Assembly (NCBI RefSeq): GCF_900155525.1
Contig: NZ_LT706942.1
Span: 193,530-257,529, forward strand
From: Mailhella massiliensis
GTDB lineage: Bacteria > Desulfobacterota > Desulfovibrionia > Desulfovibrionales > Desulfovibrionaceae
DNA: 64,000 nt
Direction of reading: 5' to 3'
The notes under the pieces are model-generated. The model did not search any database. It was not told the DNA's origin and saw only the letters and a list, made by a program, of their open reading frames with translations. The position numbers were made by a program, and so were the translations under genes. Below, piece by piece: positions 40,998 through 57,139 of this stretch (the stretch's first letter is position 1; each line of letters starts with the position of its first letter).

Positions 40998-41975
40998 TTA
41001 CTTGAGCACGCCGATTTCCTTATAGTACTTGGCCGCGCCGGGGTGCAGCGGGAAGGCAAGGTTCTGCGGGGCGGTTTCAGGAGACATGGTCTTCCAGCCG
41101 GCGTTTGCGGTGCCGATGTCCTCACGGCCTTCGACGATGGCCTTGGTCATGTTGTAGACCAGCTCTTCCGACAGGTCGGAACGCACGAGAAGTTCCGCAG
41201 CGTCGCAGAGCGCGGGGACATTCTTGCCGACCACGTCGCTGAACATGGTGGAGGGGATTTCCGTTCTCTGCACACCGTAGGTGTCATGCATCTTCTGGAA
41301 GAGTTCATCACTGACGGGAAGCCAGTTCAGGGTGGTGTTCTTGCTCAGTTCCACCACAAACCAGATTTCGCCGGGGCCGAGCCAGAAGAGCAGATCCACG
41401 TTGCCGTCCTTGGCCATATCGGCGGCGTCGTCGAAGTTGTTGGTGATGACCTTGCCGCCCCAGGACTGAATGTCCTTGTAGGTGACGCCGTAGGTGGCCA
41501 GCATCCAGCGGACCCAGAGTTCCGTGCCGCTGCCCATGGGGCCGACGACCATGTGGACGGGCTGCTTGTTCTTGATCATGCTTTCCAGCGATTCGGGCGC
41601 GTTCTTTCCGATGCCAATGATGTGCAGACGGGAGACATCGTTCAGATTGAAGATGGAGCTGACGCCGGTCACGGGTTTTCTGAAGGGATCAATGCCCTTG
41701 GCAGCGGAAACCATGATGGAGTGGGTGCCGATGGAAAGTTCGCCTTCCTTCTTGGAGAGGCGGCCGGGATTGGACAGGCCGCCGCCGGGCAGCAGGTTGA
41801 CGTCGATTTCCGGGAACTGCTTGTTGATGGCTTTTGCTACGGCGCCCATGCCCACATACCAGGCTCCCGAGGTGGGGCCGGAAAGAATCTTGATTTTTTC
41901 ATTCGCGGCCTGGGAGGGAGAGGGGAGAGCCAGAACGGCCATCACTGCCAGCAGAGCGAGTTTTTTGAGCATCAT
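40998..41975 (-). CDS. TAXI-family TRAP transporter solute-binding protein (copy 1)
   Basis: A 325-aa periplasmic binding protein with a signal peptide (LALLAVMAVLALPSPSQA). Mature motifs ILSGPTSGAWYVGMGAVAKA and NLLPGGGLSNPGRL are those of the TAXI (TRAP-associated extracytoplasmic immunogenic) family. The tail LAFPLHPGAAKYYKEIGVLK is nearly identical to that of copy 2 at 52196-53176, while the ligand-binding middle is strongly diverged. It is the last gene of the left operon permease-amidohydrolase-TAXI. Confidence 0.93.
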   Translation of the reverse strand: MMLKKLALLAVMAVLALPSPSQAANEKIKILSGPTSGAWYVGMGAVAKAINKQFPEIDVNLLPGGGLSNPGRLSKKEGELSIGTHSIMVSAAKGIDPFRKPVTGVSSIFNLNDVSRLHIIGIGKNAPESLESMIKNKQPVHMVVGPMGSGTELWVRWMLATYGVTYKDIQSWGGKVITNNFDDAADMAKDGNVDLLFWLGPGEIWFVVELSKNTTLNWLPVSDELFQKMHDTYGVQRTEIPSTMFSDVVGKNVPALCDAAELLVRSDLSEELVYNMTKAIVEGREDIGTANAGWKTMSPETAPQNLAFPLHPGAAKYYKEIGVLK

Positions 41976-41990
41976 GCATGAACTCCGTGA

Positions 41991-42848
41991 CTAGAGGGTG
42001 CCGGGAAGGTCGAGTTTCAGCGCGGTGGCGATGTTCTTGTAGAGCAGCTTGGGCAGAACTTCGGGCTTGAAGGGCAGGCTCTTGAAGTGCGCCACACCTT
42101 CTTCCAGGGGAATGAAGGGGTAGGCCGTGCCGAAGAGGAAGCGGTCCTGCAGAAAACCGTTGGCTGCGGTGACGTAGTCCTGCCATCCGGGGAAGTTGAA
42201 CAGGTACATGTCGGGGCAGATGTAGATGTTCTGACGCTTGTAGGCGACGAACAGCACTTCCGTCACATAGGGGTAGCCGCCGTGGGTGTTGATGATGGTC
42301 AGCCTGGGGAAGTCCGCGGCAATCTGATCGAGAATGGCGGGGAAACCGTAGCTGAGGTCGGGGCCGTTGCCGCCGCCCGCCATGAGCAGAAGGGGAATGC
42401 CGTCGGCTTCCAGCTTTTCATAGATGGGGTAGATGCGGCGGTCGTTGGGATACATGGGAGTGGGCAGCAGGCCGGGTTCCATGCCTACGCCGACCAGAGG
42501 GCCGTTCTTGACGTACTTGTCGATTTCATCAAGGGCTTCCTGCCGGTTGGTGGGATCGATACCGGCGACGCCGAGGAAACGGCCGGGGTAGTCGTTCATG
42601 ATGGCCACGATGTCTTCATTGGACACGCCGCCGAGGAAGGGATAGGCGCGGCGACCGGGAACGACGCCCATGGTGATGCCTGCGGAGTCCATTTCCTTGA
42701 GCAGAAGCTCGGTGGAGCGCTGTGCCGTGGAGGGCGCCTGAGGCATACCGAAGCAGCGGCTCATGCGTTTGGTGCGTTCCGTGTCGCGGAAGAGGCTGAG
42801 GTTGAGGAAGCCGCGCGCCGGAGGTCTGAGTCGGCAGTCGATGATCAT
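41991..42848 (-). CDS. Amidohydrolase-2-family-like protein lacking the HxH motif (copy 1)
   Basis: A 285-aa predicted TIM-barrel protein. It resembles metal-dependent hydrolases/decarboxylases of amidohydrolase family 2 (VGVGMEPGLLPTPMYPNDRR, then LTIINTHGGYPYVTEVL). The canonical N-terminal metal motif Asp-x-His-x-His is replaced by MIIDCRLRPP, where both His positions are Arg. The barrel His (INTHGG) and a late acidic position are less certain. AAGGAG precedes ATG 42848. It lies 15 bases before the TAXI gene. Its paralogue is at 51309-52175. Confidence 0.85.
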   Translation of the reverse strand: MIIDCRLRPPARGFLNLSLFRDTERTKRMSRCFGMPQAPSTAQRSTELLLKEMDSAGITMGVVPGRRAYPFLGGVSNEDIVAIMNDYPGRFLGVAGIDPTNRQEALDEIDKYVKNGPLVGVGMEPGLLPTPMYPNDRRIYPIYEKLEADGIPLLLMAGGGNGPDLSYGFPAILDQIAADFPRLTIINTHGGYPYVTEVLFVAYKRQNIYICPDMYLFNFPGWQDYVTAANGFLQDRFLFGTAYPFIPLEEGVAHFKSLPFKPEVLPKLLYKNIATALKLDLPGTL

Positions 42849-42896
42849 GGAAATTCTCCTTTCAAAGAGTGTTGAAGGTTCAGGAAAGGGAAGCGG

Positions 42897-43609
42897 GGGG
42901 CTGTCCTAGCTAAGAAAAAAGAGCTAGGATACCGGCATGTATGAAAGACGCAGCAGACTAAATAATCGGCAACAGACCGAACTCATAAAGTTTTTTGTGG
43001 CCGGTGCCACGGCAAGGGCTGCCGGAGAGATGGTAGGAGTAAACCGTAACACTGCCACATCCTATTTCATGCGCTTGCGACGTCTTATTGCTTCTCATCT
43101 CCCCAGCTATCGGCTGTCCGGAGAAATAGAAGCCGATGAAAGTTACTTTGGAGGTGTAAGAAAAGGTAAACGAGGACGGGGATCTGCCGGAAAAATAGCT
43201 GTTTTTGGTCTATTGAAGAGAAACGAAAGAGTCTACACAGTAATCATTCCTGATGCCCGTACTGAAACACTTCTCCCCATCATCAAAGAACAGGTGGAAC
43301 CTGACAGTATAGTCTATACAGATACATTTTCAGCTTACAACGCCTTGGATATCAACGGATTCCATCATCATCGTATCAATCATTCTCAGAAGTTTGCAGA
43401 ACACCATAATCATATCAATGGAATAGAAAATTTCTGGAATCAAGCCAAAAGACACTTACGTCGTTTTAACGGTATCAAGCCAGAACACTTTTACTGGTTC
43501 CTCAAAGAATGCGAATGGCGCTTCAATGGAGGCAACCATAAACAACTTCTAACTCAGCTAACTTATTGGGTAAAACAAGCTAAACACTAGTCTTAGCTAG
43601 GACAGCCCC
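42897..43609 (+). mobile_element. Complete IS1595-family insertion sequence, 713 bp
   Basis: Perfect 19-bp terminal inverted repeats GGGGCTGTCCTAGCTAAGA occur at 42897-42915 and, inverted, at 43591-43609. An exact 8-bp target duplication GGAAGCGG flanks it (42889-42896 and 43610-43617); 8 bp is the usual size for IS1595. One intact transposase lies inside. Its base composition is clearly more AT-rich than its surroundings, indicating recent arrival. It interrupts the left TRAP-TAXI operon at the permease stop codon. Confidence 0.96.
42937..43590 (+). CDS. IS1595-family transposase
   Basis: 217 aa, intact. A short N-terminal helix-turn-helix (ARAAGEMVGVNRNTATSYFM) is followed by the DDE/DDN-type catalytic domain of the ISXO2-like family: EIEADESYFGG, then VYTDTFSAYNAL and HHNHINGIENFWNQAKRHLR. 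No zinc-ribbon domain is seen upstream of the helix-turn-helix, as in the shorter ISSod11-like branch. It is antisense to the host operon. Confidence 0.95.
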   Translation: MYERRSRLNNRQQTELIKFFVAGATARAAGEMVGVNRNTATSYFMRLRRLIASHLPSYRLSGEIEADESYFGGVRKGKRGRGSAGKIAVFGLLKRNERVYTVIIPDARTETLLPIIKEQVEPDSIVYTDTFSAYNALDINGFHHHRINHSQKFAEHHNHINGIENFWNQAKRHLRRFNGIKPEHFYWFLKECEWRFNGGNHKQLLTQLTYWVKQAKH

Positions 43610-45493
43610 GGAAGCGGTGCGCTTCTTGCGGACAAGCTGCATGAGTACGACGGAAACGATGCAGCATGCGCCGATCATGTCGGTGAGGAGGCCGGGGTAG
43701 ATGAGGGAAAGACCGCCCGCAAGCAGAAGAAGCTGCTCCAGCCTGTTGGCGAGGATGAGGAACCACTGCTGCATTCCGCCGGCAAGGGCAATGACGCCGA
43801 TGATGGCGGAGACGCAGGCGAGACTGGTTTCCGGCAGGGAGCCGGAAAGCAGAAGCGCAGGTTCATATACGAACATGAAGGGGATGATGAAGGCCACGAT
43901 GCCCAGCTTGGAAGAGAGCAGGCCGGTTCTCATGGCGTTGGCTTCGGCAATGGAGGCTCCGGCAAAGGCCGCCATGCAGACGGGCGGCGTGATGACGGAC
44001 AGGATCGCGTAGTAGAACACGAACATGTGAGAGGCCAGAGCGGGCACGCCGGCCTTGATGAGGGCGGGCGCGCCGAGGGTGGCCACGATGACGTAGGCCG
44101 GAGTTGTGGGAACGCCCATGCCCAGCACTATGCTGGTCAGAGTGAGCATGACCATGAGCAGGAAGAGGTTGTTCCCGGCAAGGTCGGTGATGGCGCTGAT
44201 GAAGGTGAAGCCGATGCCCGTGATGGCGATGACGCCTATGATGATGCCTGCGCAGGCACAGCAGGAGGTGATCATGAGGCAGTTTTTCGCGGACATTTCC
44301 AGAGCCTTCCAGAGCCTTGCGGGCGTCATGCGGGTTTCGGCCCGGAACAGGGAAAGGATGATGATGGCGAGCGTGGCGATGAAGGCGCAGGAAATGACGC
44401 TGCGTCCGAGCACCATGGCGATGATCAGGCCGAAGATGGGCAGCAGGTAGTAAAGCCGGGAAATGACCTGACGGCTGTCGGGAATTTGATCCTTGGGAAG
44501 CGTGCCGAGATTATGCCGTACCGCCTCGAAGTGAATCATGGTCCAGAGGGACAGATAGTACAGGATGGCGGGGAGCAGGGCGGCCTTGGCCACCTGGATG
44601 TAGCCCGTGCCCGTAAGGTCGGCCATGATGAAGGCGGCCGCGCCCATGATGGGCGGCATGATCTGACCGCCGGTGGAGGCCACGGCTTCCACGGCGCCGG
44701 CAAAGGCGGGAGAATAGCCCACCCTCTTCATGAGCGGAATGGTGAAGGTGCCCGTGCCGTACACGTTGGCCGGAGCGGAACCGGAAATGGTGCCGAACAG
44801 CGCGGATGCGAAGATGGCCACCTTGGCGGGGCCGCCGCGGGATTTACGGGTGAGCAGGCAGGCAAGGTCCATGAATACGCTGCTCATGCCGCTCACATGC
44901 AGAAATGCGCCGAACATGACGAATGCGAAGATCATGGTGGAGGAAACGGCCACGGGCACGCCGTAGATACCGTCGGTGATCATGAAGAGCTGTTCGATGA
45001 GCGCATCGAAGGATACACCGCTGTGCCTGAGCGCTTCGGGGAAGGGCGCGGCGTGGCCGAACAGGGCATAGACGATGAAGGCACAGGCGATAAGCACCAG
45101 AGACCATCCCGAGGTGCGGCGCGTGGTTTCCAGTACCAGAAGAACGGCGATGACGCCGTATATCATGTCCTGCTGCGTCACTTCGTCCAGATAGCGCATA
45201 CGCATCTGGAGCATGTCCAGATTGGTGAACACATAATACGCTGAGCTGAAGGCGAGTACGACAAGGATGATATTGATGAGGGTGAGAACATTTTTCTTTA
45301 CCGCCGAATCCTCTTCACGATATCCGGGGAAATACATGAAGATAAGGGCCATCACCGCAGACAGGTGTATGGCTCTTAAAAGGTGGCTGTCCATAATGGC
45401 GAAGCCGCCGGTAAAGATGATCTGAAAAAGGGAAAGCATGACGGCGAGAACCGCCGCGATATGCTTCATTTTCAACTGGCCGATGCTAGGCAT
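43580..45493 (-). CDS. TRAP transporter fused permease, TAXI type (copy 1), C-terminus altered by the IS
   Basis: A 637-aa polytopic protein in which the small (DctQ) and large (DctM) TRAP subunits are fused. Core motifs GGPAKVAIFASALFGTISGS, PANVYGTGTFTIPLMKRVG and STGGQIMPPIMGAAAFIMAD are identical or nearly so in copy 2. The last nine residues (GAVLAKTSV) are encoded by the IS1595 end. Removing the IS and one target copy restores an end RTASLS followed by TGA. ATG 45493 is chosen over 45499 because GGGAGG then lies seven bases away. Confidence 0.94.
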   Translation of the reverse strand: MPSIGQLKMKHIAAVLAVMLSLFQIIFTGGFAIMDSHLLRAIHLSAVMALIFMYFPGYREEDSAVKKNVLTLINIILVVLAFSSAYYVFTNLDMLQMRMRYLDEVTQQDMIYGVIAVLLVLETTRRTSGWSLVLIACAFIVYALFGHAAPFPEALRHSGVSFDALIEQLFMITDGIYGVPVAVSSTMIFAFVMFGAFLHVSGMSSVFMDLACLLTRKSRGGPAKVAIFASALFGTISGSAPANVYGTGTFTIPLMKRVGYSPAFAGAVEAVASTGGQIMPPIMGAAAFIMADLTGTGYIQVAKAALLPAILYYLSLWTMIHFEAVRHNLGTLPKDQIPDSRQVISRLYYLLPIFGLIIAMVLGRSVISCAFIATLAIIILSLFRAETRMTPARLWKALEMSAKNCLMITSCCACAGIIIGVIAITGIGFTFISAITDLAGNNLFLLMVMLTLTSIVLGMGVPTTPAYVIVATLGAPALIKAGVPALASHMFVFYYAILSVITPPVCMAAFAGASIAEANAMRTGLLSSKLGIVAFIIPFMFVYEPALLLSGSLPETSLACVSAIIGVIALAGGMQQWFLILANRLEQLLLLAGGLSLIYPGLLTDMIGACCIVSVVLMQLVRKKRTASGAVLAKTSV

Positions 45494-45553
45494 ACACATT
45501 CCTCCCGGTAAAGTATGCGCAAAAGAAGTTTCCTGTAAGGATGAACAGGGATA

Positions 45554-45569
45554 TGCAAATATCGTTCCA
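45554..45569 (-). promoter_or_regulatory. Sigma-54 (-24/-12) promoter for the left TRAP-TAXI operon
   Basis: On the minus strand TGGAACG-ATAT-TTGCA; the GG and GC dinucleotides are exactly 12 bases apart. Compare the consensus TGGCACG-N4-TTGCA. The predicted start site is about 50 bases before the permease ATG. Confidence 0.65.
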
Positions 45570-45902
45570 AATTAGATAAAAATAATAAAAATTCTATAAA
45601 AACAATAAGATATATAAACATACAAAGAGCGCTTCATAACCTTTTTCCGGGGGAAGAGCCTGTGAAAGATGCCGATTTTTCTTTTAACATATTATAATTG
45701 CTTACTATTTTAACATGTATTCCGGTGATGTGTCTAAAACTGGAATATGAAAAAACTCATATTTATATGCAATTCTTCACATGAAAAAGATTTTTTTCCC
45801 TGCTTCATTAAAGAGAAGCCCCCGTCGTTTTCAGGAAAACAATGGGGGATTCTTTGATTAAATGTAATGAATATAAGGTATTATTTTATATTTTTATTAT
45901 AC

Positions 45903-45918
45903 TGGCATGTTTTTTGCA
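45903..45918 (+). promoter_or_regulatory. Sigma-54 (-24/-12) promoter for the flavoprotein gene
   Basis: TGGCATG-TTTT-TTGCA departs from the consensus TGGCACG-N4-TTGCA at one position, with GG and GC 12 bases apart. The start site would lie about 35 bases before ATG 45963. Confidence 0.8.
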
Positions 45919-45962
45919 AACGCGGGGGTGTTGCTACAGATTATTTTGAGGAGTCGTTTTTC

Positions 45963-47900
45963 ATGTATGATTCTCTTTTCACTCCCATAACTATACATGG
46001 CGTCACCGTTCGGAACCGCATCCTCTTCCCCGGCATGTCCACCAAACATGCGTCGCCCGACGGCCGCGTCACCGAGCGCATGATGCGTTATTATGAGGAA
46101 CGCGCGAAGGGCGGCGCGGGCATGGTTACGGTGGAGGCCTCCGCAGTGAGCGCCGAGGGCAGACCCTTCATCCGGGGACTCAGCCTGTACCGGGACGAGG
46201 ATATTCCCGGTCTGTCGGAGCTGACCGCAAGAATACATGCGCACGGAGCTCTTGCTTCGGTACAGCTTGTACACGGCGGCTGTCTGGCTCTGCCCGATGT
46301 TGCCGGACATGTATTCATGGTTTCCTCCGTCTGCGGCCGTACGCCGTATTCCGACAGTTCCGTTTTTACGGTGAAGGATATCAAGGCTCTTGTCCGTCGC
46401 TTTGCGGAAGCCGCGTCGCGCGCCGTGGCTGCCGGTTTCGATGCGGTGGAGCTGCATGGCGCGCACGGTTACCTGCTCGCCCAGTTCTTTTCTCCTCTGA
46501 TGAACCGTCGTGAGGACGAGTACGGCGGTTCTCTGGAAAACCGCATTCGTTTTCCCCTTGAAGTTCTGAAGGCCGTGCGTGAGGCGGTGGGCGAACGTCC
46601 CGTGCTTTACCGGATGAGCGTGGTGGACGGTCTGCAGGACGGGATACAGCTTGACGATTCTCTGGAACTTGCCGTCCGGCTGGCCCGGGAAGGCGCGGAC
46701 GCCCTGCATGTTTCTGTAGGTACACGGGAAACAAGACATATCGTGGCTCCGCCCTCCTGTGTTCCCTGCGGCTGGAATGCCTCCCTTGCACGGGCAGTGA
46801 AGAGCGCCGTGGGTTCTTCCGTTCCCGTCATCGTGGCGGGCCGTGTGCTGGATGAAAACGTGGCCTGCGACATTCTGGATCGCGGCGACGCCGACATGGT
46901 GGCCATGGGGCGCGCACTCATTGCGGAGCCTGCGCTGCCCCGGCTGGTACATGAAGGGAAGGCGCATACGGCGCTGCGCTGCGTAAGCTGCAACGAGGGG
47001 TGTTCCAGCGGTTCGGCGAGGGGCAGCGGCATAGGCTGCGCCCTGAATCCTCTGGCGGGTTACGAGGGCCGTTATGAGATCGTTCCGGCAAGACAGAGGA
47101 AGCGCGTGGTCGTCATCGGCGGGGGGCCTGCGGGTATGCAGGCGGCCTTGAGCGCCCATGCCGGAGGGCACGAGGTGATTCTCTGCGACCGCGGCGACAG
47201 GCTGGGCGGTCTTCTGCATGTGGCGAAGCTCCCCCCCTACAAGGAGCTGCTCGGTACATATGCCTCCTGGTGTGCCGAACGCCTTGAGGAGTGCGTGAAC
47301 GAAGGGGGCATGGAAATCCGCCTTTCGGAAGAAATGACGGCGAAGAAGGTGCAGGAACTGAGACCCGACGTGGTGCTGCTGGCTGCGGGGAGCGTTCCGC
47401 TCTGGCCTGCCTTCTGTCGTGAAAGCGACCTGTTCTGCACGGCGCAGGACATACTGACGGGCAGGCGTGAGCTGCCCGGCCGCGCCCTGATCGTGGGCGG
47501 CGGCCTTGTCGGCTGCGAAACTGCGGATTTTCTGCTCAAGAGAGGGCGTCAGGTGTGCATTGTGGAAATGAAGCCCGCCCTTGCCGCAGATATGGAACCC
47601 CGTACACGGGTGTTCATGATGGACAGACTCACCCGTGGAGGTGTGGAAGTATGGACAAAGAGCACCTTTCTCGGGCTGGACGAGCAGGGGGGAGCCATGC
47701 TGCGCCATGAAGATCGCGGAGAGCTGAGGCTTTCCCCCGTGGATGCCGTCATCGTCGCCCTGGGGTACCGGCCTGAGCGTTCGCTGTATGCCGGACTGCT
47801 GCAGCTCGGCATGGACGTGCGCCCGATAGGCGACTGCGCCGCCGTAGGGAAGATAGAGAACGCCGTGCGCGGCGGCTTTGAAGCGGGCCTGAGTCTGTAG
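45963..47900 (+). CDS. NADH:flavin oxidoreductase, OYE/2,4-dienoyl-CoA reductase (FadH/BaiH) type, copy 1
   Basis: A 645-aa multidomain flavoenzyme. An N-terminal FMN TIM barrel of the Old Yellow Enzyme family (VRNRILFPGMSTKHASPDGR; active-site HGAHGYLLAQFFSP) is followed by a [4Fe-4S] motif (CVSCNEGCSSGSARGSGIGC) and FAD/NAD(P) domains (VVVIGGGPAGMQAALSAHAG, LIVGGGLVGCETADFLL). Such enzymes reduce activated C=C bonds with NAD(P)H. ATG 45963 has AGGAG nine bases upstream, 45 bases after a sigma-54 promoter. The MFS gene follows 12 bases later. Confidence 0.92.
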   Translation: MYDSLFTPITIHGVTVRNRILFPGMSTKHASPDGRVTERMMRYYEERAKGGAGMVTVEASAVSAEGRPFIRGLSLYRDEDIPGLSELTARIHAHGALASVQLVHGGCLALPDVAGHVFMVSSVCGRTPYSDSSVFTVKDIKALVRRFAEAASRAVAAGFDAVELHGAHGYLLAQFFSPLMNRREDEYGGSLENRIRFPLEVLKAVREAVGERPVLYRMSVVDGLQDGIQLDDSLELAVRLAREGADALHVSVGTRETRHIVAPPSCVPCGWNASLARAVKSAVGSSVPVIVAGRVLDENVACDILDRGDADMVAMGRALIAEPALPRLVHEGKAHTALRCVSCNEGCSSGSARGSGIGCALNPLAGYEGRYEIVPARQRKRVVVIGGGPAGMQAALSAHAGGHEVILCDRGDRLGGLLHVAKLPPYKELLGTYASWCAERLEECVNEGGMEIRLSEEMTAKKVQELRPDVVLLAAGSVPLWPAFCRESDLFCTAQDILTGRRELPGRALIVGGGLVGCETADFLLKRGRQVCIVEMKPALAADMEPRTRVFMMDRLTRGGVEVWTKSTFLGLDEQGGAMLRHEDRGELRLSPVDAVIVALGYRPERSLYAGLLQLGMDVRPIGDCAAVGKIENAVRGGFEAGLSL

Positions 47901-47912
47901 AGCGGTGCTGCC

Positions 47913-49232
47913 ATGAACGGTGAAAACAAACAGGTGCTCAGGCTGGCACGCTTCTACTTCGTACTGCTTCTTTTCTGCTACGCGCTGGCCCCCTTTCACA
48001 GAACCGTGCTCAGCACGCTGGGCGTGGATCTCATGGAGGATTTTTCCGTGGGCGGAGGGCTGATATCCGTCATGGGCGCAGCCTTTTTCTACCCGTATGC
48101 GGCCATGCAGATCCCCGCAGGGATTCTTGCCGACCGATGGGGGGCCCGGCGTACCGTCATGGTGTTCCTGGCTCTGGCCGCCGCAGGAACTTTCCTTTTT
48201 GCTTCCGCCTCCACCGTGTCCATGGGAGCGGCCGGACGGGTGCTCACGGGGACCGGCGTGGCCATGATTTTCGTGCCTGCGCTCAGGGTCATTCTTTCCT
48301 GGTTTCCCAGGAGGCTGCACCCCTTGTGCACGGGGCTTTTCCTTTCCCTGGGGACGGGCGGCATGTTTCTGGCTTCCTGGCCGCTGAACGCTCTTTCCGG
48401 TTTGTTCGGCTGGCGCTGGGCCATGCTTCTCGTGGCGCTTTTTACCTGCGCACTGGCCGTGCTGTGCGGGGTGTTTCTGCGCAATACCCCTGCCGACGCA
48501 GGGCTGAAGGGAGAAACGGCCTTTTCCTCCGACGGCAGGTCGGCAAAGGCCATGCCCCTGAAAGAGGCTCTGACGCTTATTCTGAAAAGCAGAACGTACT
48601 GGGGCGTGTCGCTGTGGTTCTTCTGCATGTACGGCGTGTTTTATGCCTTCAGCGGCCTGTGGGCCGGGCCGTATCTGCTGCAGGGCTACGGCCTCGACAA
48701 GGAACGTGCTTCCGTGGTGCTCATGGCCATTTCCGCAGGCGCCATCATCGGTCCCTCTCTGCACGGCGCCTTTCTTTCCTGGGTGAGAGTGTCCAAGCGC
48801 AAGCTCATGGCCGCGGTGTGCCTTGCAGGTATGGCGCTGGGAAGCGTGCTCATCATTCCTGCCCCGGTTCTTCCCTATGCCGTGCTTCCCGTATGGGGAT
48901 TTTTCTTCAGCGTGTTCGTCGGCGGTGTGGGCAGTCTCGGGCTTCTGAAGATTCAGGAAGACTTTCCTTCCTCCATTGTGGGAACGGCTACGGGCATGGT
49001 GAATATCTATACCGCCCTCGGCGGCGGCATTCTTCAGATGTGCAGCGGCTGGATCATGGAACGGATCGCCCCCGGAGGCGTGTACGACATTACCGTGTAT
49101 GCCGGCATGTTCCTGCTTTTCTTTGTTCTCATAGGAGTGGGCTTCCTTGCCGCGCTGCTCTGCCGCCCCGGCGGCGAGTCATGTGCACCCGTGCACATGA
49201 CTCCTGCTGCGGCATCTTCGGAACGGACGTAG
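47913..49232 (+). CDS. Major facilitator superfamily transporter
   Basis: 439 aa with twelve hydrophobic segments. The MFS signature between spans 2 and 3 is ILADRWGARRTVMVF. The N-terminal MxG-type motif PFHRTVLSTLGVDLMEDFSV and the last-span region recall the D-galactonate/hexuronate-type or nitrate-type families, but the substrate cannot be assigned. It starts 12 bases after the flavoprotein gene and is probably co-transcribed, so it may move the same substrate or product. Confidence 0.88.
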   Translation: MNGENKQVLRLARFYFVLLLFCYALAPFHRTVLSTLGVDLMEDFSVGGGLISVMGAAFFYPYAAMQIPAGILADRWGARRTVMVFLALAAAGTFLFASASTVSMGAAGRVLTGTGVAMIFVPALRVILSWFPRRLHPLCTGLFLSLGTGGMFLASWPLNALSGLFGWRWAMLLVALFTCALAVLCGVFLRNTPADAGLKGETAFSSDGRSAKAMPLKEALTLILKSRTYWGVSLWFFCMYGVFYAFSGLWAGPYLLQGYGLDKERASVVLMAISAGAIIGPSLHGAFLSWVRVSKRKLMAAVCLAGMALGSVLIIPAPVLPYAVLPVWGFFFSVFVGGVGSLGLLKIQEDFPSSIVGTATGMVNIYTALGGGILQMCSGWIMERIAPGGVYDITVYAGMFLLFFVLIGVGFLAALLCRPGGESCAPVHMTPAAASSERT

Positions 49233-49311: not shown

Positions 49312-49331
49312 CCTGCACGGAGCCGTGCAGG
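49312..49331. repeat. Perfect 9-bp inverted repeat in the MFS/TRAP gap
   Basis: CCTGCACGG-AG-CCGTGCAGG, 64 bases before the right TRAP permease. It is not followed by a T-run. It may be an operator or an RNA-stabilising hairpin between MFS and TRAP genes. No sigma-54 promoter was found in this 162-base gap. Confidence 0.5.
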
Positions 49332-49394
49332 AAGACATGCTCTCAAGAGAAGGGAATGGGTCCCTTCCCATGAAGATATAAGGAGCACAAACAA

Positions 49395-51275
49395 ATGACC
49401 TTTTCCAGAAAGTCGGTGGCCCCGATAGCATCCGTTGTTGCTGTCGTTCTGACGTTGTTTCAAATCTATTCCACGGGCGGGTTCGGCGTCCTGCCCACGC
49501 CCATACAGCGCGGCACGCATCTGGCTCTCATCATGACGCTGGTTTTTCTCTGGCGTCCCGCCTTCCGTTACAAGGAAGGCAGGGAACCTCTGCCCATGTT
49601 CCTGCTGGACCTGTGCCTTGCCGTGCTGGCGCTGGCCATAGGGGCGTACATCATCATGGAAAACGACTACATCATGGACCGTCTGCGTTATGTGGACCCG
49701 CTGACCGATATGGACTGGTTCATGGGAGTCAGCTGCGTGCTCCTCGTGCTTGAGATCACGCGACGCACGGCGGGGCTTCCGCTGGTGATAGTCTCCGTGG
49801 TGTTCATTCTCTATGCCTTCTTCGGGCAGTATCTGCCCGGAGGCCTGCGCCACAACGGCATTTATACTCCCGATCTTCTTGAACAGCTCTTCCTGACCAC
49901 GGACGGCATCTACGGCGTGCCCCTGGCGGCGGCCGCAGGCATGATCTACGCCTTCGTCATGTTCGGCGCGTTTCTGGAAAAGGCCAACATGAGTTCCCTG
50001 TTCATGGATCTTGCCTGCCTGCTCACCCGCCGTTCCCAGGGCGGTCCCGCCAAGGTGGCCATCTTCGCATCCGCGCTGTTCGGCACCATTTCCGGTTCCG
50101 CTCCGGCCAACGTGTACGGCACGGGCACCTTCACCATTCCGCTCATGAAGAGGGTGGGCTATTCTCCCGCCTTTGCCGGCGCCGTGGAAGCCGTGGCCTC
50201 CACCGGCGGCCAGATGATGCCGCCCATCATGGGCGCGGCCGCCTTCATCATGGCCGACCTCATCGGCGTGGGCTATCTGGAAATCGCCAAGGCGGCGCTT
50301 CTGCCTTCCCTGCTTTATTATCTTGCTCTTCTGGCCATGATTCATTTCGAGGCGGTAAACAAGAATATCGGCCGTCTGCCGGAAGAGCAGATTCCCTCCA
50401 CGCGCAGCGTCATGATCCGCATGTACTACCTGCTGCCCCTGGTGGTGCTGGTGGCCGTCATGCTCATGGGCCGCAGCGTCGTGTCCTGTGCGCTCATCGG
50501 CATCGTGACCATTCTGGTGCTTTCCGTATTCCGTGCCGAAACCCGCTTCGACCTGAAGCGTCTTGCCGGAGCTCTGGAACAGGCCGCCAGAAATGCGCTC
50601 ATGATTTCCTCCTGCTGCGCCTGCGCGGGCATCGTGGTGGCCGTCATCGCCCTTACCGGCGTGGGCTACAAGTTCATCAACTTCGTAACCATGCTCGCCG
50701 GCGACAGCCTGCTTCTGCTTATGATCTGCCTCATGATCACCAGCATGATCCTCGGCATGGGGGTTCCCACCAGCCCCGCCTACATCATCGTGGCGGCCCT
50801 CGGCGCTCCGGCTCTGGTCAAGGCCGGCGTGCCCGTCATTGCCGCGCACATGTTCGTGTTCTACTACGCCATTCTCTCCGCCATCACGCCGCCCGTGTGC
50901 GTGGCATCCTTCTCAGGGGCGGCCATTGCCGAGGCCAATGCCATGAAGACGGGCTGGGTGTCCGTGAAACTCGGCATCGTGGCCTTCATCATTCCCTTCA
51001 TGTTTGCCTACCAGCCTGCGCTCATGCTCCAGGGCGACGCCCTTACCGTGGGCCGCGCCGTGGTGACCTCCATCGTGGGCGTACTCGGTCTTTCCGGCGG
51101 TATGCAGGGCTACTTCGTCAGTCGCTGCCATTCCTGGGAACGGCTTCTGCTCATTGCGGGCGGTCTCATGCTCATCGACTCCGGTTCCATGACCGACGTC
51201 ATCGGTGTGGCGCTCATGGCCGGAGTGGGAATTCTTCAGTGGATACGCCGCAAAAATACCGTCGTCGCGGCCTGA
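49395..51275 (+). CDS. TRAP transporter fused permease, TAXI type (copy 2)
   Basis: A 626-aa fused DctQM permease. It shares long, almost identical blocks with copy 1 at 43580-45493 (GGPAKVAIFASALFGTISGS, PANVYGTGTFTIPLMKRVG), while the termini differ. The intact C-terminus RRKNTVVAA helps define the ancestral end of copy 1. AAGGAG precedes ATG 49395. First gene of the right operon, in the same gene order as the left one but on the opposite strand. Confidence 0.95.
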   Translation: MTFSRKSVAPIASVVAVVLTLFQIYSTGGFGVLPTPIQRGTHLALIMTLVFLWRPAFRYKEGREPLPMFLLDLCLAVLALAIGAYIIMENDYIMDRLRYVDPLTDMDWFMGVSCVLLVLEITRRTAGLPLVIVSVVFILYAFFGQYLPGGLRHNGIYTPDLLEQLFLTTDGIYGVPLAAAAGMIYAFVMFGAFLEKANMSSLFMDLACLLTRRSQGGPAKVAIFASALFGTISGSAPANVYGTGTFTIPLMKRVGYSPAFAGAVEAVASTGGQMMPPIMGAAAFIMADLIGVGYLEIAKAALLPSLLYYLALLAMIHFEAVNKNIGRLPEEQIPSTRSVMIRMYYLLPLVVLVAVMLMGRSVVSCALIGIVTILVLSVFRAETRFDLKRLAGALEQAARNALMISSCCACAGIVVAVIALTGVGYKFINFVTMLAGDSLLLLMICLMITSMILGMGVPTSPAYIIVAALGAPALVKAGVPVIAAHMFVFYYAILSAITPPVCVASFSGAAIAEANAMKTGWVSVKLGIVAFIIPFMFAYQPALMLQGDALTVGRAVVTSIVGVLGLSGGMQGYFVSRCHSWERLLLIAGGLMLIDSGSMTDVIGVALMAGVGILQWIRRKNTVVAA

Positions 51276-51308
51276 TCGTCATAACAGCACAAGAAAGGAG
51301 TATGTGCC

Positions 51309-52175
51309 ATGGTTATCGATTTTCGTGTCCGTCCGCCTTATCGCGGATTTCTTGAGATGGGCATCTTCACCAAGTATGTGGTTCCGCAGAAGGATCCCCG
51401 CAAGCTGAGCGCCTTTGAAATGGGCCGCGCCGGAGTGCCGTCCTGCGAACAGCGCAGCATGGATCTGTTCATGAAGGAAATGGACGAGGCCGGTGTGGAG
51501 GCGTGCGTCGTCATGGGCCGCAAGAACAAGGGACAGGCTATCAACGCGGGCAACATTCTTCCCGAAGATCTCTATGAGCTGGCAAACAGCCATCCCGGCC
51601 GTTTCATTCCCTTTGCCGGTATCGACCCCAACGACGCGGGAGCCCGCAAGGAAGTGGAATATGTGGCCGGAGAGCTCGGCTTCAAGGGCATCAGCATGGA
51701 CCCCGGCTGGTGCGAACCCTGCATGTACGCCGACGACGAGCGCATTCTCTCCATTTGTGAGACCGCCGAACAGCTCGGCCTCATCGTGACCCTCACTGCA
51801 AGCGGCGTGGCCGGTCCCGATCTTACCTATGCCGACCCGCTGGTCATCCAGCGCGTGGCCAAGAAGTTCCCCCGGCTGAAAATCGTCGTGGCCCACGCCT
51901 GCTGGCCCTTTGTGCCCCAGATGCTGGGCGTGGCCATGACCTGCCCCAACATCTACCTCGTGCCCGACGTGTATCTCTATACGGACAATATGCCCATGTC
52001 CGACCTGTATGTGACGGCGGCCAACGGCTACCTGAAGTACAGAACGCTCTTTGCCAGCACCTATCCTGTGGGCGGCCTGAAGCAGAGCATCGAAAAATGG
52101 AGCGCCAAGGGCTTCACTCAGGAATCCCTGCAGCTCACCCTGCACGACAACGCAGCCGGACTTCTCGGTCTGTAA
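51309..52175 (+). CDS. Amidohydrolase-2-family-like protein lacking the HxH motif (copy 2)
   Basis: 288 aa, a paralogue of the gene at 41991-42848. It starts MVIDFRVRPPYRGFLEMG, again with Arg-x-Arg in place of the metal-binding His-x-His. Other barrel motifs remain: FIPFAGIDPNDAGARKEVEY, LKIVVAHACWPFVPQML and LFASTYPVGG. GAAAGGAG precedes ATG 51309. It lies 33 bases after the permease. Loss of both His in both copies argues against simple decay and for a changed chemistry or a non-catalytic role. Confidence 0.87.
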   Translation: MVIDFRVRPPYRGFLEMGIFTKYVVPQKDPRKLSAFEMGRAGVPSCEQRSMDLFMKEMDEAGVEACVVMGRKNKGQAINAGNILPEDLYELANSHPGRFIPFAGIDPNDAGARKEVEYVAGELGFKGISMDPGWCEPCMYADDERILSICETAEQLGLIVTLTASGVAGPDLTYADPLVIQRVAKKFPRLKIVVAHACWPFVPQMLGVAMTCPNIYLVPDVYLYTDNMPMSDLYVTAANGYLKYRTLFASTYPVGGLKQSIEKWSAKGFTQESLQLTLHDNAAGLLGL

Positions 52176-52195
52176 TCTTCGGAAAAGGAGTCTGT

Positions 52196-53176
52196 ATGAA
52201 ACTTTCCAGCATCCTTCTTTCCTGCACTCTGGCTCTGGGACTGACCGTTGCTCAGGCCGGTGCGGAACCCATGAAGCTCAACCTCGTGTCCGGCCCCGTG
52301 ACCGGCAGCTGGTATGTGGGCATGGGCATTGTAGGCAAGCTCATCACCAACGCCTATCCTGATACGGAAATCACCATGCTGCCCGGCGGCGCCACCGTGA
52401 ACCCCATCCGCATGGATCGCGGTCAGGCCGATATCGGCATCGTGCAGATAGCTCTTGGTTCCGTGGCCCGCAAGGGGGAAGCCCCCTTCAAGGCTCCGGT
52501 GAAGAATGTGGCCCAGCTTGTATGCTGGAATGACCTGAGTCCCATCAACGTGGTGGTGCGCGAAGACCTCGGCGTGAACAGCATCGAGGAACTTCGTGAC
52601 CGTAAGGTGCCCGTGCGTCTTGCCGTGGGCATGAAGGGCGGCGGCGGTGACAGCTACGGCCGCTGGCTGTTCGGCGAATACGGCTTCACCTTCGACGATA
52701 TCGAAAGCTGGGGCGGACAGGTCTATTTCAACAATTACGACGACATGACCAACCTTGCCAAGGACGGCCTCGTGGACATGATCGTGTGGCTCGGACCCGG
52801 TGAAAGCTGGTTCCTCGCCGAAATCAGCAAGGACATCAAGATGAAGTGGCTCCCCATCAGCGATGAGGTGGCCGAAAAGATGAACAAGCGCTACGGCATG
52901 GTTCGCGCTTCCGTGTCCGGCGATTTCTACTCCGGCCGTGTGGGCGGCAAGGACATTCCTTCCGTGGCGGAAATGACGGGGCTCAGCGTCCGCGCCGACA
53001 TGCCTGAGGAAGAAGTGTACAAGATCACCAAGGCCATCTGTGAAGGTCGCGACGAACTCGTGAACTCCTTCGCCGCCTGGGGCAGCTTCACCGTGGAGGG
53101 CGCGGCCCGCGAGATGGCCTTCCCCCTGCATCCCGGTGCGGCCAGGTACTATAAGGAAATCGGCGTTCTCAAGTAA
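52196..53176 (+). CDS. TAXI-family TRAP transporter solute-binding protein (copy 2)
   Basis: 326 aa with a signal peptide (LLSCTLALGLTVAQAGA). Motifs NLVSGPVTGSWYVGMGIVGK and TMLPGGATVNPIRMDRGQAD define the family. The tail MAFPLHPGAARYYKEIGVLK mirrors copy 1. The middle region, which forms the ligand pocket, differs a lot from copy 1, so the two systems may recognise different but related compounds. AAAAGGAG precedes ATG 52196, 20 bases after the amidohydrolase gene. Confidence 0.94.
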   Translation: MKLSSILLSCTLALGLTVAQAGAEPMKLNLVSGPVTGSWYVGMGIVGKLITNAYPDTEITMLPGGATVNPIRMDRGQADIGIVQIALGSVARKGEAPFKAPVKNVAQLVCWNDLSPINVVVREDLGVNSIEELRDRKVPVRLAVGMKGGGGDSYGRWLFGEYGFTFDDIESWGGQVYFNNYDDMTNLAKDGLVDMIVWLGPGESWFLAEISKDIKMKWLPISDEVAEKMNKRYGMVRASVSGDFYSGRVGGKDIPSVAEMTGLSVRADMPEEEVYKITKAICEGRDELVNSFAAWGSFTVEGAAREMAFPLHPGAARYYKEIGVLK

Positions 53177-53368
53177 CAGGCATAGCCGGGGGAAGTGCTT
53201 CTTCCCCCGGTCTGTTTCAGTGCATTTTTTACTGAATTTTTTCTCAGCAGGATCTGCGTTTCCCCATAAGAAGCGCGTCGCCGGACGCCGATTTTTTCCG
53301 GGGCTTCGGAACCCGGGATTTGTCCGTGCCGCCTTGCGGAAGGGGCCTGCCAGCATTTCGGAGCCGTC

Positions 53369-55420
53369 ATGAAATATCCCAAGTTGTTTTCTCCCATAGC
53401 GCTCAGCCCGACCTGCGTGCTTAAAAACAGAATTGTAAAGACAGGGCAGTCCACCTGGCGCTGGAATCAGGACGGGTCTGCCCAGGACAGCACCGGCGAG
53501 GATCTGTACGAGAATATCGCCAGAGGCGGGGCCGCCGCCGTGATCATAGGAGGGTGCGCCATAGAGGACACTCCCGGCATCTATCTCGGCCTGTGGGACG
53601 ACAAGTTCATCCCCGGACTGCGCCACCTGGCGGACAAGGTACACAAGTACGACTGCAAGATCTTCGCGCAGTTCCATCATTCCGGCCCCGCCGCATGGCC
53701 CCGCCTCGGAGCGCTTCCCATATCCTCCTCTTCCCTCGGGCTTGATGAAATCCCCATGAAGCCGCCGCTTGCCAATCCCTGCCGGGAAATGACGCTGGAG
53801 GAGATACGGGAAAAGCAGCGTCAGATCGTGGAAGCCTGTGTCCGCGCCGATCAGGGCGGATTCGACGGCATGGAAATTCATGTCGCTCACGGCTATCTTC
53901 TGAACAGCTTCGTCAGCCGTGTGTGGAATCACAGAACGGATGAATACGGCGCGCAGAACGTGGAGAACCGTACGCGCATCGTGCGCGAGATATTTGAGGA
54001 AGCCCGCAGGCGCTGCCGGCCTGAATTCGTGCTCGGCGTCCGCATGAACGGCCGTGAATACGGCGCGAACGGCGCCATTACCATTGAGGAGGCCGTGGAG
54101 AACGCCCGTGCCTTCGAGTCCATGGGGGCGCAGTTCATCAACGTGGCCGGTTACGGCTACGGTGAGGCCCCGTTCCGTTACTGCCCGGATTACTTCCCCT
54201 ATCCCGAGCCGGAAGACTTCATGAAGCCTTATATGGAAGCCTATCGCGGCAAGGGGCTGTGGACGGACTCGGCAAGCCATATCAAGAAGGCGGTCAGCGT
54301 GCCCGTGATCACCGCGGGCAGAATGAACGAGGATCTTGCGGAAAAGGTGCTCGAGGACGGCGATGCGGATATCATCGGCATAGGCCGCGGACTCTGGGCC
54401 GACCCCGAGATGCCGCGCAAGATTCTGGAAGGCCGCCCCGAGGACATCGTACGCTGCACGCGCTGCGCCAGCTGTGAAGACCCCGTGACCCAGCCGCGCA
54501 TCTGCCGTGTGAACCCTTCTCTCGGTCGGGAAAAGGAAATGGACATGAGTCCTGCCGCGACGAAGAAGAAGGTCATGGTCATAGGCGGCGGTCCCGCCGG
54601 CATGGAAGCCGCCCGTGTGGCCGCCCTGCGCGGTCATGAGGTGACGCTGTACGAGAAGACCGGTTCCCTCGGAGGTCGTATCAAGCTTGCCTCCATGATC
54701 AAGGGGTGCGAGGTGGAGAACGTCATGCCCATCTACGACTACCTCACCACGCAGATCCGTAAGCTTCCCGTGAAGGTGAAGCTCCATACCACCGTCACCC
54801 GCGAGCTGGTGCTTCAGGAAAAGCCCGACGCCGTGGTGATAGCAACGAGTTCCGAATATGCCGTACCCGAGATTCCCGGCATACACGGTTCGAAGGTCTT
54901 CACCATCAAGGGACTGTCGCGTCTTGCGGCGCTGCCTCTGCGTCTGTTCGGTCCCGAGCTGCTGGCCAGACTCAGCCATGTCTTCCTTCCCGTGGGCAAA
55001 AGAGTGGTGGTTCTCGGCGGGCAGATTGAAGGTGTGCAGGGCGCGGTCTTCCTGAAAAAGCGCGGCCGTGACGTCACCATCGTGGAAGAGAGTGAAACCT
55101 GGGGTGCGGGTATTCCCGAACGCTACTTCCAGCGTATAGGCCCGTGGTTCCGTCGCAAGAATGTCCGCGTGCTGACCGGGACGAAGGCTGTGGAAATCAC
55201 GAAGGACGGCGTACGCGTCCGGTCCTCGGACGGAACGGAAACCGTGCTCTCCTGCGACAGCGTCATGGTGCTCATGCCGCAGGTTCCTTCTCATGCTCTG
55301 GCCCGGTCGCTGGAGGGCGTCGCGGGAGAAATTCATGAGATAGGTTCGACCCTCGGTGCGGAAAACGGTCTGCTCAAACATGCCCTTTATGACGGGCGGC
55401 GGGTAGGCTGTCGGCTTTGA
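53369..55420 (+). CDS. NADH:flavin oxidoreductase, OYE/2,4-dienoyl-CoA reductase type, copy 2
   Basis: A 683-aa protein with FMN barrel, [4Fe-4S] and FAD/NAD domains in the same order as copy 1, but only distantly similar to it. The active-site block reads HVAHGYLLNSFVSR (Gly to Val compared with HGAHGYL). The cluster motif is CTRCASCEDPVTQPRICRVN. The FAD motif is VMVIGGGPAGMEAARVAALR. An extra segment around LPLRLFGPELLARLSHVFLP precedes the NAD motif VVVLGGQIEGVQGAVFL, in which the GxGxxG is altered (GGQIEG). No clear ribosome-binding site is visible. It ends at a strong terminator. Confidence 0.88.
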   Translation: MKYPKLFSPIALSPTCVLKNRIVKTGQSTWRWNQDGSAQDSTGEDLYENIARGGAAAVIIGGCAIEDTPGIYLGLWDDKFIPGLRHLADKVHKYDCKIFAQFHHSGPAAWPRLGALPISSSSLGLDEIPMKPPLANPCREMTLEEIREKQRQIVEACVRADQGGFDGMEIHVAHGYLLNSFVSRVWNHRTDEYGAQNVENRTRIVREIFEEARRRCRPEFVLGVRMNGREYGANGAITIEEAVENARAFESMGAQFINVAGYGYGEAPFRYCPDYFPYPEPEDFMKPYMEAYRGKGLWTDSASHIKKAVSVPVITAGRMNEDLAEKVLEDGDADIIGIGRGLWADPEMPRKILEGRPEDIVRCTRCASCEDPVTQPRICRVNPSLGREKEMDMSPAATKKKVMVIGGGPAGMEAARVAALRGHEVTLYEKTGSLGGRIKLASMIKGCEVENVMPIYDYLTTQIRKLPVKVKLHTTVTRELVLQEKPDAVVIATSSEYAVPEIPGIHGSKVFTIKGLSRLAALPLRLFGPELLARLSHVFLPVGKRVVVLGGQIEGVQGAVFLKKRGRDVTIVEESETWGAGIPERYFQRIGPWFRRKNVRVLTGTKAVEITKDGVRVRSSDGTETVLSCDSVMVLMPQVPSHALARSLEGVAGEIHEIGSTLGAENGLLKHALYDGRRVGCRL

Positions 55421-55432
55421 TGCCGATCGGGA

Positions 55433-55464
55433 ACGCCCCGTCGTCAAAGGCGGGGCGTTTTTTT
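55433..55464 (+). terminator. Intrinsic terminator of the right TRAP-TAXI/flavoprotein operon
   Basis: ACGCCCCG, a 10-base loop and CGGGGCGT are followed by seven Ts, 12 bases after the flavoprotein stop. Confidence 0.9.
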
Positions 55465-55717
55465 CTGCAGGATGCTGGGAAAACAGGGTTGTGTTGTGGA
55501 ACTTTTCATGGAAAAATATATGGTTTGGCGTATATCATCCCATGTCGTCGGGAACTGGACCGCTGTGGGGATTTTTTACCGGGGGGCGGTAAGAAAGACT
55601 GAACCGCATATGCGCAGGATGATGTTCTGTGAATGCTGAACCGGACAGTGGGGAAGCGTTTTTTCTCGGGTGGGTCATGGCCGCTGCAGGGTGTGACGAG
55701 CGGAAGGGAGTAGGGTT

Positions 55718-57139
55718 TTGTCAGTCCCAAGGTTGTCTCAGGATATTTTTGAAATTTTGTACAAGAGCGATGTGGGTATCGCCATCTGTGATGGTGAAGG
55801 CCGTTTTGTCTGGGGCAACCCTCAGTATCAGCGCATCAGCAAGTTTGAAGTGCACAAGGTCGAAGGCCAGCACATTCTGGACATCATGACCGCACACTCC
55901 GTCAACGTGCAGGGCGCGGAAAACATGCTTTCCGTAGTGCTCAACAAGCGTTCATCCTATACCTGCATGGTGGACTTCAATACCGGGCATGACACCATCG
56001 CCACGGCGACTCCCATTTTCAATGAGGACGGCTCTCTTCGCTGGCTCATGTACTATCTTGTGGACTGCGATCAGGTCTTTCAGATGCAGCAGCAGCTTGC
56101 CGAAGTGACGGAACGCATGGAGGTGAGTCAGAAGCAGTTGCAGGAAGCGCTCTTTGAAAAAGGCGGACTGAACAGTTATGTGGTTCACGACGGCAAAATG
56201 CTGGATATTTACGCGGCTGCTCTCCGTATGGCTCAGGTGACGGCCACGGTGCTCATTCTCGGCGAAACAGGTACGGGGAAGGATCATCTTGCCAAATTCA
56301 TCCATAATGCGGGTACCCGCAAGGAAACCCCTTTTGTTCATGTGAACTGCAGCGCCATTCCCGAGAATCTTTTCGAATCGGAACTGTTCGGTTATGAGGC
56401 GGGATCGTTCACCGGCGCATCGCGTCAGGGCAAGATGGGGCTCATCGAGTTTGCCAACCACGGCACTCTGTATCTGGATGAGGTTGCTGACCTGCCCCTC
56501 AATATGCAGACGAAGCTGCTGCTTGTCCTGCAGAACAAGAAACTGATCCGCATAGGCGGGGTCAAGGCCCGTGCGGTGGACGTTCGTGTCATTGCCGCCA
56601 CCAACAGAGATCTTCAGAGCATGGTTGCGGAGAAGCGGTTCCGGGAGGATCTGTACTACAGGCTGAATGTGCTGGAAATTCAGCTTCCGCCCCTGCGCGA
56701 CCGCAGGGACGACATCATTCCTTTCGTTCAGTTTTTCGTGGAGCGCTTCAATGAGCGTTACAAGGTGCACAAGAAGTTCAGCCAGCACGCGCTGCACTGT
56801 TTTCTGCAATATGACTGGCCGGGGAATGTCCGCGAACTGGAACATCTGGTGGAGAGGCTCGTCATCATGTCCCCCGAGGATTTCATAGGGGAGGAGCTGT
56901 TACCGGAGAAATTCAGGAATGCGGAAAAGAAGACCCCTTCTCTGGAGAAGGGGCGGAAGCTTAAGGATATTCTGGAAATGGTGGAGGAGCAGGTACTCCG
57001 AAAGGCCATAGCGTCGTCGTCCTCTCTGAAGGAGGCCGCCGAGAGACTGGGCATAGAACTTTCCACCCTGACCAGAAAGAAGCAGAAGTATGGAATATAC
57101 CTTAAAAAAGAATACGGTGAGCGCGAAAACGAAGAATAG
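55718..57139 (+). CDS. Sigma-54-dependent transcriptional activator with N-terminal PAS domain, TTG start
   Basis: 473 aa. A PAS sensor domain (residues about 8-118; VGIAICDGEGRFVWGNPQYQ) and a coiled linker are followed by the AAA+ domain: Walker A GETGTGKD (182-189), sigma-54 contact loop GSFTGA (229-234, Ala to Ser compared with GAFTGA), Walker B LYLDE (251-255), then WPGNVRELEHLVER. A Fis-type helix-turn-helix ends it (SLKEAAERLGIELSTLTRKK). TTG 55718 has GGGAG seven bases upstream. It is the obvious candidate activator for the sigma-54 promoters at 45554 and 45903. Confidence 0.93.
   Translation: MSVPRLSQDIFEILYKSDVGIAICDGEGRFVWGNPQYQRISKFEVHKVEGQHILDIMTAHSVNVQGAENMLSVVLNKRSSYTCMVDFNTGHDTIATATPIFNEDGSLRWLMYYLVDCDQVFQMQQQLAEVTERMEVSQKQLQEALFEKGGLNSYVVHDGKMLDIYAAALRMAQVTATVLILGETGTGKDHLAKFIHNAGTRKETPFVHVNCSAIPENLFESELFGYEAGSFTGASRQGKMGLIEFANHGTLYLDEVADLPLNMQTKLLLVLQNKKLIRIGGVKARAVDVRVIAATNRDLQSMVAEKRFREDLYYRLNVLEIQLPPLRDRRDDIIPFVQFFVERFNERYKVHKKFSQHALHCFLQYDWPGNVRELEHLVERLVIMSPEDFIGEELLPEKFRNAEKKTPSLEKGRKLKDILEMVEEQVLRKAIASSSSLKEAAERLGIELSTLTRKKQKYGIYLKKEYGERENEE

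Follow-up and report, generated by a model that had tools for sequence, protein, structure and literature searches.

In a 64,000-nucleotide stretch of the Mailhella massiliensis genome (contig NZ_LT706942.1, positions 193,530 to 257,529; hereafter the window), two genes for amidohydrolase-like proteins, AHY1 and AHY2, lie in oppositely oriented operons together with TRAP permeases and TAXI-type solute-binding proteins (window positions 40998–57139). Both proteins carry two arginines (RxR) where metal-binding histidines are expected. Our leading reading, which we hold at an even chance, is that the locus consists of two adjacent sigma-54-driven import-and-process cassettes for organic anions, arranged around an undescribed metal-free family of the amidohydrolase fold. 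More tentatively, and somewhat short of even chance, we propose that the RxR proteins form a so far undescribed family of metal-free enzymes that performs a shared first step on imported acids, sulfonates included. In Desulfovibrionaceae they would be an overlooked part of the glycyl-radical operons for isethionate and 2,3-dihydroxypropane-1-sulfonate (DHPS), and the larger Mailhella genomes would have amplified them to 15–20 or more copies, most with their own importer, many with Old Yellow Enzyme (OYE) or glycyl-radical chemistry and often as RxR pairs acting together. The main interest is this family with its importer and sulfonate-operon company, and not the mirrored layout of the locus, which is local and young.

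An amidohydrolase-like family without metal ligands

AHY1 (41991–42848, reverse strand) and AHY2 (51309–52175, forward strand) have the TIM-barrel fold and match the PF04909 profile (100.9 bits for AHY1), and both start directly at the first barrel strand. In AHY1, IDCRLRPP replaces IDxHxH and the Asp of beta-8 is absent. Across 64 aligned relatives, 24–50% identical to AHY2, the metal motif DxHxH has become DxRxR in every sequence, with D4, R6, R8 and the beta-6 His (H196) invariant. The beta-5 His, a Thr in AHY2, was present in one of the 64 and the Asp after beta-8 in none; all four metal-ligand positions were lost in 63 sequences and three of the four in all 64. The initial annotation had called the amidohydrolase atypical, and the alignment bears this out. 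Sequences of 260 residues or fewer, those at least 80% identical to another and the Firmicutes loci, which were missed by a gene finder tuned to Mailhella codons, were left out of the alignment. Forty-three named loci were fetched with the peptide patterns M[VI]IDFRVR or KIVV[AP]HAC, a choice that favours the motif, and searches with whole proteins or profiles supplied the Mailhella and family loci (L-numbers denote fetched genome stretches and G-numbers genomes).

An assignment of AHY1 and AHY2 to the ordinary metal-dependent amidohydrolases or decarboxylases, with unusual ligands, is very unlikely in view of these losses and of the exchange of the beta-1 pair for two arginines, even though fold and Pfam family are the same as in decarboxylases and the beta-1 pair also varies in other PF04909 proteins of the genome (the one in L097 is without DxHxH).

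We name the group the BB4693-like RxR family, its members having DxRxR, the beta-6 His, no beta-8 Asp and PDB entry 3irs as closest structure. An RxR-type profile scored at least 263 bits on 63 genes and at most 76.5 bits on the six other proteins matched in these stretches, four of which have DxHxH. Four of the 63 genes failed the RxR filter, two with RAP for RPP and two with late-called starts, one of which reads IDFRVRPP when the longer start is taken. The M. massiliensis genome has 15 RxR genes. Neither AHY1 nor AHY2 matched an NCBIfam model at an E-value of 0.001, nor did the copy in L191, which is linked to a glycyl radical enzyme (GRE), at 1e-20.

Genes accompanying the RxR genes

A TRAP permease was found within 8 kb of 12 of the 15 RxR genes of M. 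massiliensis (5,000 random draws gave a mean of 1.78 and a maximum of 7) and an OYE near eight of them (mean 0.68, maximum 6). Counted in reverse, an RxR gene is near 8 of the 12 OYE genes and near 10 of the 28 TRAP large permeases. The stretches fetched from four Mailhella genomes hold 63 RxR genes; at a distance of at most 7 kb, a TRAP permease accompanied 48 of them, an OYE 33, a sigma-54 activator 30, a TAXI protein 26, a DctP protein 18 and a GRE 10. Ten control stretches from genome G016 held no TRAP permease, OYE, GRE, TAXI or DctP gene, only one sigma-54 activator and one GRE-activase-like gene. From G014 and G001 only part of the RxR genes was fetched; stretches L095–L103 of M. massiliensis were chosen for other PF04909, OYE or TRAP matches, and neighbours were counted around RxR genes only.

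Where no TRAP permease was present within 7 kb (15 genes), 11 genes had a carrier, one a DctQ gene and one an MFS gene. The carriers fall into two clusters, whose tested members are of the CitMHS and Na/sulfate-symporter types. In other groups, TctC receptors (Roseomonas, a betaproteobacterium, Desulfovibrionaceae) or ABC-type binding proteins stand beside the RxR genes, and reading by eye added ABC permeases (L131) and a membrane protein resembling a carrier (L134). The usual companion of an RxR gene is an importer of small organic compounds, and the partner enzyme varies. The association of these gene types, suggested by the initial annotation for the window, extends far beyond this locus, but a fixed pathway set is not supported: the recurring unit is an importer with an RxR amidohydrolase, and an OYE or a GRE is the variable partner.

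Two further RxR loci of M. massiliensis recur in other Mailhella and offer a clue to substrates. One combines the RxR gene with MmgE/PrpD and an Fe-S nitroreductase (L087, 13180–15542), the other with an HpcH/HpaI aldolase and an aminotransferase (L085, 1952–3891). The OYE in L085 is called as two overlapping frames (3965–5044 and 5002–5913), and as one in a sister species (L168), so that it is either a broken gene or a sequence error.

RxR genes also accompany each other: 37 of the 63 have a second one no more than 7 kb away, and one closed genome has 10 of its 16 in pairs (a mean of 1.2 at random, maximum 8). Of nine loci from alpha- or betaproteobacteria, eight have two RxR genes, the second being a partial call in L121 and L123. 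The pair is adjacent in L112, L113, L115 and L119 (Alphaproteobacteria: Roseomonas, Rhodobacteraceae); a TctC gene lies beside it in L112 and L115, and the adjoining binding protein of L119 is of another type. In a quick tree, the L119 pair splits between an AHY1 side and an AHY2 side (supports of 91 and 80, not strong) and the L124 pair falls on one side. Paired RxR proteins may act together.

RxR genes in glycyl-radical operons

The RxR type was present in 39 of 119 Desulfovibrionaceae genomes. Outside Mailhella it occurred in 31, of which 25 had a single copy; the eight Mailhella genomes with a match had from 1 to at least 20 copies, the counts for the richest genomes being lower bounds, since no more than 20 candidates per genome were scored. 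At 1e-20, three of 19 Mailhella genomes had no match to AHY2.

From 20 stretches fetched from other genera, 16 RxR genes were obtained (L189, L196, L197 and L200 had no RxR gene call). Eight of these have a GRE in the stretch (L191, L194, L195, L198, L201, L203–L205). Three more, in L187, L192 and L193, belong to longer GRE microcompartment-type operons, whose starts, recovered as L207–L209, lie beside a GRE and a sigma-54 activator; the remaining five have no GRE within the stretch. The microcompartment-type operons encode aldehyde dehydrogenases (614 and 627 bits, cut-off 403), EutJ (343 bits, cut-off 182), an RnfC-domain protein, a TauE exporter and a EutN-like shell protein at 83.5 bits, below the cut-off of 118. 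All eight GREs tested against the HpsG model scored 1246 to 1557 bits (cut-off 1000).

M. massiliensis itself has five GREs over the HpsG cut-off (L088 5277–7775, L089 9160–11673, L090 11872–14364, L091 4579–7080 and L094 1775–4249), each accompanied in its stretch by an activase-like gene and an RxR gene, and in four cases by a TRAP permease. L088 has one more GRE-like gene (1907–4210). Among the genes of 40998–57139, Pfam and NCBIfam gave no GRE and no activase, and the locus in the window is therefore not a glycyl-radical operon of the IslA/HpsG kind. Isethionate respiration has been proposed for a Candidatus Mailhella, with HpsG/IslA homologues in 75% of 48 genomes according to the text available of that study (PMC13219744).

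Promoter-like sites and conservation of the locus

Two sigma-54 promoter-like sites, each with one mismatch to the consensus, lie in the gap that separates the divergent operons of the window and point outwards: TGGAACGATATTTGCA (45554–45569, reverse strand), 61 bp from the first permease gene, and TGGCATGTTTTTTGCA (45903–45918, forward strand), 45 bp from the first OYE gene, OYE-A. A one-mismatch site was found neither before the second TRAP permease nor before the second OYE gene (OYE-B) or the activator gene. Both sites are identical in an uncultured sister Mailhella (L104), although gap and flanks have diverged. In the RxR-bearing stretches (699,903 bases), 31 strict sites were counted versus eight in the reversed sequence; 25 of the 31 are upstream of gene starts, 18 of these before an AHY, DctP, DctQ, TRAP, OYE or GRE gene. 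The control stretches (160,010 bases) gave one strict site, and five when reversed. These counts support sigma-54 control of the RxR cassettes, through a putative activator.

In L104 all ten genes of the locus are found in identical order and orientation, with an AHY2 97% identical to that of the window. Candidatus Mailhella excrementigallinarum (L105) has the ten genes in rearranged form; its AHY2 is 93% identical and the permease directly before it was called only as an 87-residue remnant. Since an AHY2 match above 51% was found in just three of 19 Mailhella genomes, the source genome counted, the exact ten-gene set is young and local. It is supported as a conserved set with conserved divergent promoter-like sites, beyond chance. 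The initial annotation spoke of a seven-gene set, having described ten genes, and looked to its conservation in relatives; of the 19 genomes, one other keeps the set intact and a third has it rearranged.

Proposed function

According to the model, the TAXI binding protein and the TRAP permease would import a carboxylate- or sulfonate-like compound, whose acid group would be bound in the cytoplasm by the metal-free RxR protein via its two beta-1 arginines, a hold that fits expectation for TRAP ligands. The retained beta-6 His (His196) could act as acid/base, with a lyase, isomerase/tautomerase or lactonase step as the most likely metal-free reaction. The two OYE-type flavoenzymes, for which C=C reduction is predicted from their family, may next use NAD(P)H to reduce an activated C=C bond, helping electron disposal. 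The PAS/sigma-54 activator would switch on the divergent promoters, the sites of which are backed by conservation. The presumed order is importer, RxR protein and OYE, with one imported acid each.

The RxR protein might instead be no catalyst but a pseudo-enzyme, which would sense the imported compound and regulate the activator or importer next to it. Its metal ligands are lost, several kinds of importer adjoin it with no constant chemistry alongside, and 30 of the 63 genes have a sigma-54 activator within 7 kb, all of which would suit a sensor; the other 33 have none, and in the microcompartment loci the RxR gene stands at the far end, next to a TauE-like gene and a gene for an aldehyde dehydrogenase or EutJ-like protein. 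Moreover, a ligand sensor need not keep the beta-6 His and the new RxR, which are invariant in 64 of 64 sequences. We consider such a sensor unlikely.

Several observations weigh against the metal-free enzyme and its import cassettes as proposed here. To our knowledge, a substrate or activity is known for no RxR member, the solved BB4693 included. Of the TRAP large permeases of the genome, 18 of 28 have no RxR gene within 8 kb; for two of the 63 RxR genes (in L094 and the related L172), no importer was recognised at up to 7 kb. Five other PF04909 genes were tested, and since two of them, of the HxH kind, are also near a TRAP permease (three are not), the RxR type is not alone in its importer linkage. 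No single pathway follows either, because the partner enzymes vary (OYE, GRE, PrpD, HpcH, nitroreductase). Finally, one-mismatch sigma-54 motifs are at chance level in the window (3 found versus 2.67 expected), with 18 found versus 35 expected at two mismatches; because the motif count is at or below chance, we rely on position, conservation and the wider scan.

If the RxR protein is a standing member of sulfonate and importer operons, this points to a reaction or control step missing from current pathway maps, and the protein may be an unrecognised step in the use of imported compounds by gut sulfidogens such as Mailhella. The H2S output of gut Desulfovibrionaceae is governed by their use of sulfonates and organic acids, for which the isethionate operon is one of the best-studied routes. 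The role of the RxR protein can be tested soon, because the 3irs structure was released in 2009 and a relative, D. alaskensis G20, has a transposon library (named in PMC6386719).

Gene content of the locus

The first operon, on the reverse strand, comprises a fused TRAP permease (43580–45499; TIGR02123, 652 bits), AHY1 and TAXI protein 1 (40998–41975; TIGR02122, 131.8 bits). On the forward strand follow OYE-A, a FadH/BaiCD-type FMN/FAD/Fe-S enzyme (45963–47900; PF00724, 255.5 bits), an MFS transporter (47913–49232; PF07690, 135.5 bits), the second fused permease (49395–51275; TIGR02123, 659 bits), AHY2 and TAXI protein 2 (52196–53176; TIGR02122, 146.9 bits). Both permeases and both binding proteins exceed the curated NCBIfam cut-offs (321 and 84.35 bits, respectively), as expected of TRAP-TAXI transporters. 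Further to the right, also on the forward strand, lie OYE-B, a more divergent OYE-type Fe-S flavoenzyme (53369–55420; PF00724, 182.2 bits), and the PAS/sigma-54 interaction activator (55718–57139; PF00158, 225.9 bits), with a weak PAS_4 domain on its first 160 residues (27.6 bits, cut-off 23.1). The initial annotation was correct in placing two TRAP-TAXI/amidohydrolase operons, pointing opposite ways, around an OYE and an MFS gene, with a second OYE and the activator on the right. A longer OYE-A frame from 45867 is unlikely, because the promoter-like site at 45903 would fall inside it. The sigma-54 regulator PrdR was rejected as identity of the activator (NF041552, 392 bits versus a cut-off of 795). 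Scans of the window for tRNA and Rfam families gave only two tRNAs, at 63302–63465, beyond the locus.

OYE-A and OYE-B both have PF00724 together with PF07992, the composition of long-form, FadH-like OYEs. The best-scoring solved structure is 1ps9, a 2,4-dienoyl-CoA reductase, for OYE-A and NCR (6qkg) for OYE-B. The likely Fe-S cysteines in the translations are spaced C-x2-C-x2-C-x9-C in OYE-B versus C-x2-C-x3-C-x11-C in OYE-A. The best NCBIfam names for the two are those of a bile-acid reductase (BaiCD), bilirubin reductase (BilR) and a mycofactocin-linked reductase, which would make the locus a known gut pathway. All three names score far below their cut-offs: 476 (OYE-A) and 311 (OYE-B) bits for BaiCD (NF041087, cut-off 825), 434 and 345 for bilirubin reductase (NF045599, cut-off 750), and 461 and 354 for the mycofactocin-linked model (cut-off 793). 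TRAP-TAXI and RxR partners are not known as parts of these pathways, and we give this identification hardly any chance.

An IS1595-family element of 713 bp (42897–43609, forward strand) splits the left operon between permease and AHY1. It has 18-bp inverted repeats, an 8-bp target duplication (42889–42896 and 43610–43617) and a transposase gene at 42937–43590 (PF12762, 125.9 bits). The permease frame ends within the element, its last nine residues and stop codon being IS-derived. Its three identical copies in the genome speak for recent movement, and the L104 locus lacks it. Because the element lies between permease and AHY1 and ends the permease frame, the left operon may be polar-defective, and is probably weakened, in this strain. 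The initial annotation had the gene order of this operon right and overlooked the insertion.

Origin of the two halves

The mirrored layout had been read as a recent tandem duplication of a single operon followed by divergence of the binding proteins. The gene types do match between the two halves, and inverted repeats of 666 and 458 nt are 80% and 76% identical. However, AHY1 and AHY2 (39% identical) fall in different well-supported branches of a quick tree (SH-aLRT support only), each with closer kin elsewhere in Mailhella, so that the locus joins two cassettes of older origin, between which local gene conversion occurred afterwards. At the protein level the permeases share 59.7% identity, and they are near-identical over about 60 codons only. 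In codons 240–300, nine sites group the copies within species versus one by orthology, compared with 8 versus 422 elsewhere (two species), which is why we attribute the identity of this core to conversion between the inverted copies at about 44660–44840 (permease 1) and 50040–50220 (permease 2). The near-identical permease cores noticed at first thus hold for this tract alone, and the binding proteins do differ (42% identical). At the 3' ends of the TAXI genes a 60-nt stretch is 92% identical within the window; at that length L104 has no such pair. Duplication plus diversification of one operon is accordingly improbable.

Comparison with known systems

Literature searches for TRAP/TAXI with an amidohydrolase and an OYE or GRE returned no named pathway with such a set, in agreement with the initial annotation. 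Closest to the RxR family is BB4693 of Bordetella bronchiseptica (PDB 3irs, 3k4w), a TIM-barrel protein deposited as uncharacterised; the literature search gave no paper on its function and one modelling paper that names the entry. A study of Bordetella Bug proteins (PMC11452294) proved irrelevant here. COG2159-type decarboxylases and LigJ (gamma-resorcylate decarboxylase, ACMSD, LigW, 4-oxalomesaconate hydratase) share fold and sequence family with the RxR proteins at 13–22% identity; they bind a catalytic metal, while in the RxR proteins the ligand positions are replaced. Metal-free chemistry has a precedent in the superfamily with LigI and D-galactarolactone isomerase, metal-independent amidohydrolases of COG3618, another subgroup with 13–16% identity to the RxR type. 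Structural neighbours of the RxR protein include 4i6k and 2ffi, both labelled pyrone dicarboxylate hydrolases. MetalloBSH of Bilophila, a secreted amidohydrolase from a gut member of the Desulfovibrionaceae, belongs to PF07969 and has conserved metal ligands according to the part of PMC13081902 available; the amidohydrolase-like proteins of the window, of PF04909, are without these ligands and start at the first barrel strand, and MetalloBSH was discarded as their identity on the different Pfam family.

The isethionate cluster of Bilophila wadsworthia is also among the closest known systems. In the portion of its description available (PMC8667426), it includes a PAS-domain regulator, and the gene listed last, 00649, is entered as a 'hypothetical protein' of 'predicted amidohydrolase function'. 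The word 'amidohydrolase' is absent from PMC6453916, on isethionate lyase, PMC6386719 has no word beginning 'hydrolase', and in the accessible parts of the literature on the cluster this amidohydrolase is left unexplained. The locus in the window differs from the cluster, being without GRE and without shell genes. The operons starting in L207–L209 have gene types similar to those of the Bilophila isethionate sulfite-lyase cluster, as far as its available description goes, and contain an RxR gene; compared by that description only, Bilophila 00649 is likely of the RxR type as well.

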